A stretch of 31,170 nucleotides of DNA from a virus. The notes under the pieces were generated by a model that saw nothing but the letters and a program-made list of their open reading frames with translations, ran no database searches and was not told where the DNA came from. Positions 9,400 to 15,899 of the stretch are shown piece by piece. Numbering within the stretch: the stretch's first letter is position 1; each line of letters opens with the position of its first letter. The translations under genes were made by a program, and so were the position numbers. The DNA lies in IMG/VR virus record IMGVR_UViG_3300005043_000009, positions 1-31,170 of that record. One strand, given 5' to 3'.

Positions 9400-9650
9400 G
9401 TGACTTAACAGATAGATTGAGAGGGATATACAAGGTCAATGGTGATCTTCGTGCCGACATGGGGTCTAGGACGTATCCAAGGCCGGAAGACGCGATAATA
9501 CAAGAAGCAGCAAACAGGATCGACGAGCTTGAGGCTATTGTTGAGTCTCAAGAGGTTACGATAGAGACCATTAAGGCGCTAATCGATAGCGGATCACCTA
9601 TAACGATTATCTGCATCAAAGATGTTCTCGCTGAAGCATTGGAGGATTAA
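9396..9650 (+). CDS. Hypothetical phage protein, 84 residues
   Basis: Starts MSDLTDRLRGIYKVNGDLRA and has the phrase EAANRIDELEAIVESQEVTI, typical of short phage proteins in which DLxDRLRxG is followed by a coiled coil. Function unknown. Overlaps the previous gene by ATGA, and its stop touches the terminator-like hairpin. Confidence 0.65.
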   Translation: MSDLTDRLRGIYKVNGDLRADMGSRTYPRPEDAIIQEAANRIDELEAIVESQEVTIETIKALIDSGSPITIICIKDVLAEALED

Positions 9651-9657
9651 CACTCAC

Positions 9658-9681
9658 AAAAAAGCCTCAATAAAGAGGCTT
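9658..9681 (-). terminator. Intrinsic terminator, stronger on the minus strand
   Basis: AAGCCTC (9662-9668), loop AATAAA, GAGGCTT (9675-9681). Read leftward the stem is followed by six T, which is a classic terminator; read rightward there is only TTAAG. A second outer pairing, AACACT (9649-9654) with AGTGTT (9683-9688), could close it further for rightward transcripts. No leftward gene is known to its right, so its leftward orientation is curious. Confidence 0.65.
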
Positions 9682-9731
9682 AAGTGTTGCGCTTCGAAGG
9701 TGAAAGGCGCAGTATATTAAACAGCTAAGGA

Positions 9732-9792
9732 TAATATGAAGAAGATTATAACTGTCATTCGATAGTTGTTCAACAAAATCACATTCATATTA
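9732..9792. ncRNA. Candidate structured RNA element
   Basis: A 9-bp perfect inverted repeat encloses a 7-bp hairpin with one G-U pair. It has no coding sequence. A small RNA or a decayed tRNA are possibilities. Compensatory changes in relatives would be needed to prove it. Confidence 0.3.
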
Positions 9793-9839
9793 CTCATAGC
9801 TGCATAGTGGCGATATTCGTGCGTCCAATGTTTAAGAAT

Positions 9840-9940
9840 GATCGGTACGGTGGTGGTAAGTATATGGGATTAGTGCTGGTAGCATAGCGGTTCGAATCCG
9901 ACCCCATATATTTAGGAGAGTTCGAATCTCTCTACCGATC
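9840..9940 (+). tRNA. tRNA-like element with second tRNA-like fold in place of its anticodon arm
   Basis: Acceptor strand ATCGGTA (9841-9847) pairs perfectly with TACCGAT (9933-9939), an eighth pair being possible. The T arm is perfect: GAGAG-TTCGAAT-CTCTC (9916-9932), with a 5-base variable region TTTAG before it. Where a 17-base anticodon arm should be there is a 50-base insert closed by TATATGGG/CCCATATA. The D region (9850-9860) does not pair and no 7-base anticodon loop is seen, so an amino acid cannot be assigned. No CCA is encoded. Probably not a decoding tRNA in this form. Confidence 0.4.
9862..9910 (+). tRNA. Inner tRNA-like fold lacking an anticodon arm
   Basis: ATATGGG (9862-9868) pairs with CCCATAT (9903-9909). 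A T-arm-like CGG-TTCGAAT-CCG follows at 9888-9900, with only 3 of 5 stem pairs. A short D-arm-like hairpin is TGCT-GGT-AGCA (9874-9884). There is no room for an anticodon arm; the length is about 49 bases. It may be the remnant of a tRNA gene that lost about 27 bases, placed inside another. Confidence 0.35.
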
Positions 9941-10175
9941 CCTAGACAGTTGCAACAGCGATGAGAACTATACAAGCAGTGATCAATACCATTACGCGCT
10001 TAAGAGCGGCGCGAACTAAAAACGGGTTATGTTGAAGACGAATAGCACTAAGCGTGTGCTGGGCTGGGTTGACCTACCAAATACGGGTTCCGAATAGTTT
10101 AATGGATTGAGGGTTATATTAATCTACCAAGGGCTTCAACAAAGCTCTTTATGTCTAGCTACGCGGAGAATAAGT

Positions 10176-10502: not shown

Positions 10503-10543
10503 AAGCTGAGTTGACTTTAAATTTTAATCTGGAGGATATGAAA

Positions 10544-10792
10544 ATGGGTGATATGGGAGACGATTTCAGAGCCTGGAACGAAGACAAGAAAGCAAAGAAG
10601 CGCAGCAATAAAGAATTCTCAACCGGAATGCTAAGAGAGAAAGGCATTAAATTTACATCGCATAACAGCGGCTCACACTTAAAGATTGGTAATGTCGATT
10701 TCTGGCCTAGTACTGGATTAATCATGCGCAAAGGTCAGCATTTAGGCCGAGGGTTCAAAAAGCTACTCAAGATAATTGAGTCGAGTAAGTAA
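10544..10792 (+). CDS. HicA-like / phage hypothetical protein, 82 residues
   Basis: GGAGG lies eight bases before ATG 10544, so longer in-frame forms from 10493 (TTG) are less likely. The stretch LREKGIKFTSHNSGSHLKI followed by WPSTGLIMRKGQHLGRG occurs in many small phage proteins and feels like the dsRBD-like fold of HicA, but it lacks a clear antitoxin partner. Function unknown. Near neighbours are nuclease-like genes. Confidence 0.6.
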   Translation: MGDMGDDFRAWNEDKKAKKRSNKEFSTGMLREKGIKFTSHNSGSHLKIGNVDFWPSTGLIMRKGQHLGRGFKKLLKIIESSK

Positions 10793-15407: not shown

Positions 15408-15899
15408 GTGAAGATGCGAATACAAAAGCAGGGTGATGCGTTCTATCCGTTCGATGCCGAAGCCGTGGAAGATATGGTGATGGTTAAGGACGATGGCGTA
15501 TTCCTTGTAAGTATCAAATCTCTGAGCAAACGGGACCAGAGAAGCATCGACCAGAATAGAATGCAGTTTAAATGGTACGCAGACGCAGCCAAGCAGGGCG
15601 ACCACACGGCGATGGAGTACAGGGCATACTGTAAGCTGCATTTCGGCGTAAAGCTGCTACGGGCTCACGATGAAGAGTTTAGAGAGATATACGACAAGAT
15701 AATCAGACCTCTACAATACGAGGATAAGCTAGCAATGATGATGGAGCCAATCGACCTGCCGATAACGTCACGCATGAGCGTTGAATTAATGGCGAAGTAT
15801 CTGAAGGAAGTAAGCGACCATTTTCTAGCTCTAGGGTTTCAGCTAACTAAGTTTGAACACTTTGCGGACTGGCTGAAGCAGGATATTAAAAAGCATTAA
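15408..15899 (+). CDS. ninB: NinB (lambda Orf) recombination protein
   Basis: 163 residues. The phrases SLSKRDQRSIDQNRMQFKWY and FGVKLLRAHDEEF, followed by ITSRMSVELMAKYLKEVSDH and a closing DW, are the conserved parts of the NinB/Orf family (Pfam PF05772). Orf binds single-stranded DNA and SSB and helps the annealing recombinase, so it fits the SSB and Rad52-like proteins of this phage. The start is GTG at 15408 with GGAG nine bases upstream; an ATG two codons on is an alternative. Slightly longer than lambda Orf (146). Confidence 0.85.
   Translation: MKMRIQKQGDAFYPFDAEAVEDMVMVKDDGVFLVSIKSLSKRDQRSIDQNRMQFKWYADAAKQGDHTAMEYRAYCKLHFGVKLLRAHDEEFREIYDKIIRPLQYEDKLAMMMEPIDLPITSRMSVELMAKYLKEVSDHFLALGFQLTKFEHFADWLKQDIKKH

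Follow-up and report, generated by a model that had tools for sequence, protein, structure and literature searches.

A tRNA-like unit nested within another in a tailed-phage genome fragment, and nested tRNAs in other phages

What kind of RNA, if any, is encoded by phage DNA that folds into one tRNA-like unit enclosed within another, neither of which has a normal anticodon arm? This question is raised by positions 9840-9940 of the window, i.e., the whole stretch of 31,170 nucleotides that was analyzed (a 31.2 kb virus record with linear ends). The window is a tailed-phage fragment; the subset of ORFs that was scanned includes genes for a portal, a terminase, a major head protein and SSB, as well as NinB-like, HNH and GIY-YIG-like genes. 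The element is one domain within a 525-nt non-coding gap on the plus strand (9651-10175), which is bordered upstream by an ORF of 84 aa, with its end at 9650, and downstream by a T5orf172/GIY-YIG-like ORF from 10176, for which a start further upstream, in the same frame, is provided by TTG at 10107. ARAGORN, used with default settings, found no tRNA or tmRNA genes anywhere in the window. It should be noted that a long imperfect hairpin (9722-9802, with 26-nt arms that are 77% complementary) is located just 5' of the element, and that the minus strand, opposite to the genes, has promoter-like matches at 9745-9773 and a terminator-like site at 9681-9662, all of which are consensus matches only.

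In both the minimum free energy (MFE) and the centroid fold, the outer unit forms its acceptor and T arm, and the inner unit forms a 12-bp stem and two hairpins. The 5' strand of the outer acceptor (9840-9847, GATCGGTA) forms eight Watson-Crick pairs with the 3' strand (9933-9940, TACCGATC), which is followed by CCT rather than CCA. An earlier note on this DNA had described a perfect 7-bp acceptor (9841-9847 with 9933-9939); all seven pairs are Watson-Crick, and G9840-C9940 is an eighth pair that the note did not mention. With an acceptor proper of 7 bp, G9840 would occupy position -1. An extra G-1 acceptor pair in bacteria is typical of tRNA-His; despite this pair, the element has no histidine anticodon. 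The acceptor is followed by a D-loop-like linker (9848-9861, CGGTGGTGGTAAGT) with a TGGTA motif and without a D stem; the part of the linker that precedes 9857 is single-stranded in the centroid fold, and the last five nucleotides of the linker belong to the inner helix. The outer unit also has a 5-nt variable region (9911-9915) and a T arm (9916-9932, GAGAG TTCGAAT CTCTC; stem 9916-9920/9928-9932, loop 9921-9927), and the earlier description of the former as 5 bases and of the latter as perfect agrees with both the sequence and the folds.

The two strands of the inner stem (9857-9868, TAAGTATATGGG, and 9903-9914, CCCATATATTTA) constitute an inverted repeat with 92% complementarity and form a helix of 12 bp, 11 of them Watson-Crick pairs and one G-U. 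The acceptor-like stem attributed to the inner unit (9862-9868/9903-9909, 7 of 7 paired) is the 7-bp inner acceptor and extends into this longer helix. The short D-like hairpin (9873-9885, GTGCT GGT AGCAT or, equally, TGC TGGTA GCA) and the T loop TTCGAAT (9891-9897), both reported previously, are present in the sequence as well as in the MFE and centroid folds, the latter as the loop of a T-arm-like hairpin (9888-9900, CGG TTCGAAT CCG). The inner unit combines an acceptor helix of 12 bp with this T loop, yet its T stem has three Watson-Crick pairs, followed by G-A and A-C mismatches. The would-be inner discriminator base is A9910; the sequence after 9909 is ATTTAG, which lacks CCA or NCCA, and neither unit has an encoded CCA.

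The statement of the earlier note that neither unit has a 7-base anticodon loop holds in the sense that a normal anticodon arm, i.e., a 5-bp stem with a 7-nt loop, is absent, and the sole available 7-nt loop sits on a 3-bp stem. However, the statement is not strictly true, because this loop, TTCGAAT, is 7 nt long and fits the anticodon-loop rule YUNNNRN. Excision of 9862-9910 would join 9861 to 9911, and the D-like linker would then run straight onto the variable region; as the inner unit stands for the whole anticodon arm, no anticodon stem would be left. The comparison with covariance models that had been proposed gave no Rfam match to tRNA (RF00005) or tmRNA, neither at the gathering score nor at E <= 5. 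As anatomy, the reading of the locus as a tRNA-like unit within a tRNA-like unit is correct, and similar nesting is present in many other phages; the roles that the note suggested (a remnant inserted into another remnant, a decoy, a processing substrate or packaging) would all be putative.

We estimated how often such a fold would arise by chance. The 100 nt before the inner T loop were dinucleotide-shuffled, while both T arms were kept fixed, as were the 3' strands of the acceptors; the shuffled bases contain the real arms, which makes the test mildly conservative. The outer acceptor was paired at 7 of 7 positions in 428 shuffles, the inner one in 630, and both in 8 of 20,000, a number that is conditional on two consensus T loops 30 nt apart and leaves the chance of this spacing out of the count. 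The window contains four GTTCRANTC matches versus 1.41 expected, and none of its consensus T arms other than that of the outer unit has a perfect acceptor (mean of 0.015 such units in 200 shuffled windows). The free energy of 9840-9941 is only modestly low (z -2.34), so that the case is carried by specific tRNA features and not by stability; for the inner 58 nt, z is -3.35 and none of 200 shuffles was as stable. The nested fold at 9840-9940 is real and non-random.

A search with the portal protein yielded 15 relatives (identity from 75% to 41%), in which the structural genes match and the early genes do not. Seven stretches from five of these relatives were compared with the window; their structural genes have matches whose identities rank in the same order, whereas no queried ORF from about 5.5-17.9 kb of the window matched at E 1e-3. 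The element is thus located in a region that the portal relatives do not share. No tRNA genes were found in the seven stretches, and the sole candidate with a T arm and an acceptor, located in L402, consists of one unit whose loop is TTCAAGC. Queries with the ORFs 10535-10792 and 15408-15899 recovered no related loci; the GIY-YIG gene recovered four relatives, none with a tRNA-like unit nearby. A T-loop pattern found no homologue of the element in 2.9 million viral contigs, and altogether five routes, at the DNA or protein level, gave none. The searches uncovered no relative arranged in this way, and there is thus no covariation to draw on. As the element was untraceable by homology, we searched for the arrangement itself. 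Scans with patterns of two close T loops produced many chance matches and many genuine other elements, none of them alike in sequence, and twelve further contig matches did not have the arrangement of the window in the printed folds. About 45 pattern matches were rejected as ordinary tRNAs with CGTTCGACTC in the anticodon arm, a chance likeness.

Our tentative preference is for a non-decoding, tRNA-derived RNA with a double elbow, perhaps cut by host tRNA-processing enzymes. The outer unit would have retained the acceptor, the T arm and a D-like linker that contains GG, while a second, minimal unit (acceptor helix, D-like hairpin and T loop) would replace the entire anticodon arm and provide, with its acceptor stem, the helix of the outer arm. 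The element would be transcribed together with the plus-strand genes. RNase P and RNase Z recognize the stacked acceptor and T arm; the host enzymes could cut at either unit or at both, and the outcome might be a stable processed small RNA or a transcript that is cut at this site. The element may also engage enzymes that bind the tRNA elbow. As to its origin, it might, with less assurance, derive from a tRNA nested in an anticodon loop that lost the outer anticodon stem. The two perfect acceptors, the two consensus T loops and the unusually stable 12-bp inner helix favor this reading, as do the recurrence of nested tRNA-like units in other phages and the similar shape of one of them (L317, see below), whereas the 3-bp inner T stem, the missing CCA ends and the failure to find a homologue argue against it. 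If functional, such a phage RNA would copy the shape of tRNA twice without decoding, and could serve as a probe of the tRNA-binding enzymes that the phage engages.

A functionless pseudo-tRNA is nearly as likely. A tRNA or a nested tRNA could have been acquired, rearranged by duplication or deletion, and could now be decaying. No such element was seen in the relatives that share structural genes, and the search of contigs with these T loops found no homologue; the two mismatches in the inner T stem and the absence of a D stem and an anticodon stem in the outer unit are also consistent with decay, and the nearby HNH and GIY-YIG genes suit a recombining region. Conversely, all 8 pairs of the outer acceptor, all 5 of the outer T stem and all 12 of the inner helix are intact, which counts against a pseudo-tRNA since neutral decay would break these stems, unless the event was recent.

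We consider it rather unlikely that the element forms one domain of a longer structured RNA or leader that spans some 500 nt (9651-10165) and might regulate the GIY-YIG-like gene located downstream. The entire gap folds better than shuffled sequences (z -3.50; 1 of 100 shuffles was equally good), and its strongest folding part is 9651-9839 (z -4.18), the hairpin at 9722-9802 being the main source of the z-score of the gap. However, the fold of 9941-10165 is ordinary (z -0.89), no large-RNA family of Rfam matched at the gathering score, no tRNA-like unit was found near the relatives of the GIY-YIG gene, and the only promoter-like match on the plus strand of the gap is weak and located downstream of the element.

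It is more doubtful still that the locus encodes a single odd tRNA, in which the inner hairpins would be the D arm and an anticodon arm (UUCGAAU, anticodon CGA, serine) displaced from the acceptor/T domain by the 12-bp helix. Any loop of T-loop consensus also satisfies the anticodon-loop rule, and for this reason the inner hairpin can be read as an anticodon arm, with a poor stem; in UUCGAAU, U33 is present and position 37 is a purine, and in a comparable locus of another phage (L070:5644-5733) ARAGORN calls a tRNA-Leu(CAA) whose anticodon arm is a T-like hairpin. Nevertheless, the putative anticodon stem would have three pairs, the 12-bp insertion would break the tRNA core, and no tRNA was called at default settings; a 97-nt call of ambiguous identity appeared at a lowered ARAGORN threshold only, alongside overlapping low-scoring chance calls. 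A tRNA fragment carried as an attachment site for integration is very improbable: phages often carry tRNA 3' ends as attP, but an attP copy would not give a matching 5' acceptor strand twice, and there is no integrase among the window proteins scanned (part of the ORFs of a fragment record). Chance or an assembly artefact is just as improbable, as the 8 joint acceptor matches in 20,000 shuffles stand against the former and the absence of a second tRNA in the window, which could have been the source of a chimera, makes the latter unlikely, even though the record is a fragment from a metagenome with junctions that are not confirmed by any relative; nor was a relative found that has an ordinary tRNA at this site.

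Structural filters sorted the loci from the pattern scans into several kinds, the clearest of which is a set of nested tRNAs in other phages. We placed the outer anticodon stem using the distances to the acceptor and the variable loop, without assuming any loop length, and 18 distinct elements passed this filter. In all 18, a tRNA or mini-tRNA of 40-119 nt is located within the anticodon loop of another tRNA (for example, L008:3330-3477, L054:4219-4335, L078 on the minus strand, L122, L123, L130, L133, L157, L186, L189, L198, L214, L219 and L351). Removal of the inner unit and its discriminator (and of CCA, where present) leaves an exact 7-nt loop starting with CU in 16 of 18 elements, the exceptions being L126 and L135. 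The inner unit ends with NCCA, followed by the 3' half of the 7-nt loop, in 15 of 18 cases (L078 lacks NCCA), a share that is high partly by selection because one scan pattern demanded CCA after the inner T arm. Three elements (L008, L054 and L078) were first found with a CCA-free pattern, which in L054 hit the acceptor strand by accident. Loci from all scans were pooled, and the 18 cases are therefore not a random sample. Some inner units look like whole tRNAs, as that of L198 is similar to stand-alone tRNA-Gly genes of Streptomyces phages (78% over 74 nt). A BLAST search for annotated isolates with nested tRNAs returned ordinary tRNAs only.

This set with exact 7-nt loops is the most interesting by-product of the analysis and extends a reported oddity. 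Nested units could be a general phage arrangement in which the inner unit is excised by tRNA end-processing enzymes, the window carrying a derived double-elbow form, although we regard this generalization as unlikely. Excision by RNase P and RNase Z would leave a 3'-OH and a 5'-phosphate, which could be sealed by a phage RNA ligase; we infer this route from the known end chemistry of the enzymes. An Rnl1-type RNA ligase was found in 2 of 17 nested-tRNA records and PF09414 scored above the cut-off in 6 of 16, counts that come mostly from fragments and have no non-nested comparison set. The wider pattern matters more than the single element, as the exact 7-nt loops hint at how an insert might be removed from a bacterial-type tRNA by enzymes that every cell has.

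Several other arrangements were observed among the scanned loci, for which inspection by eye covered mainly those printed by our scripts. Six loci (L330, minus strand, about 3150-2100; L326, L338, L342, L366 and L296) have a short D-like hairpin, with a loop such as TTGGT, between two T arms; the stem of this hairpin varies among copies (GGTC/GACT, AGTT/AACT) in a manner that looks compensatory by eye only. In L245:685-794, L269:67-184 and L289:2139-2282, a complete tRNA-like unit lies inside a second acceptor pair and a following T arm, with the linker ACAAA or ACGAA, i.e., the nesting is from the outside and not in the anticodon loop. Three T-arm-like hairpins are found within one acceptor in L297, L343 and L367.

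How does the window element compare to known systems? Like the tRNAs nested in anticodon loops, some of which have inner units as small as 40 nt, it has an inner acceptor helix, here with a T-arm-like hairpin of 3-bp stem, inside an outer unit that contributes an acceptor and a T arm. However, those tRNAs keep the outer D arm and the 5-bp anticodon stem, both of which the window element lacks; since neither a stem nor a loop for an anticodon would be left without 9862-9910, the element is outside this class. The nearest shape that we saw (L317:291-400) has an outer unit that resembles tRNA-Leu (Rfam tRNA, 38.6 bits), with an inner stem in the middle bearing TTGGTA and a TTCGAAT hairpin; it differs from the window element by an extra hairpin, and its MFE fold pairs part of the inner T hairpin otherwise. 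The tRNA-like domain of tmRNA shares with the element the acceptor, the T arm, a D loop without a D stem and a long helix that replaces the anticodon arm, whereas the third acceptor pair is C-G in the element and G-U in tmRNA. A tmRNA was considered and rejected, with no match in Rfam, no call by ARAGORN under its default settings and no reading frame for a tag of the known kind; at a lowered threshold, ARAGORN reported several overlapping, mutually exclusive tmRNAs, none with an identified tag. G-1:C73 is the identity pair of histidine tRNA, and a pair of this type is also present in the element, where any charging would be putative. Plant RNA viruses have tRNA-like structures at the 3' end of the RNA genome, and these are charged. 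They copy the acceptor/T-arm half of tRNA (see the review PMC5723415), whereas the genome that hosts the window element is that of a DNA phage. In phages, Lak megaphages have tRNAs with introns, one of which possibly encodes a tRNA, and related phages have versions free of introns (Devoto et al. 2019, PMC6784885); given this precedent, we do not call nesting as such new. The Lak case shares with the window element a tRNA-like unit inside another in a phage genome. The Lak outer gene, however, is recognized as a tRNA by tRNAscan-SE when its insert is taken for an intron, whereas the outer unit of the window has no anticodon stem or loop after removal of the inner one and belongs to a small phage with no other tRNA in the fragment.
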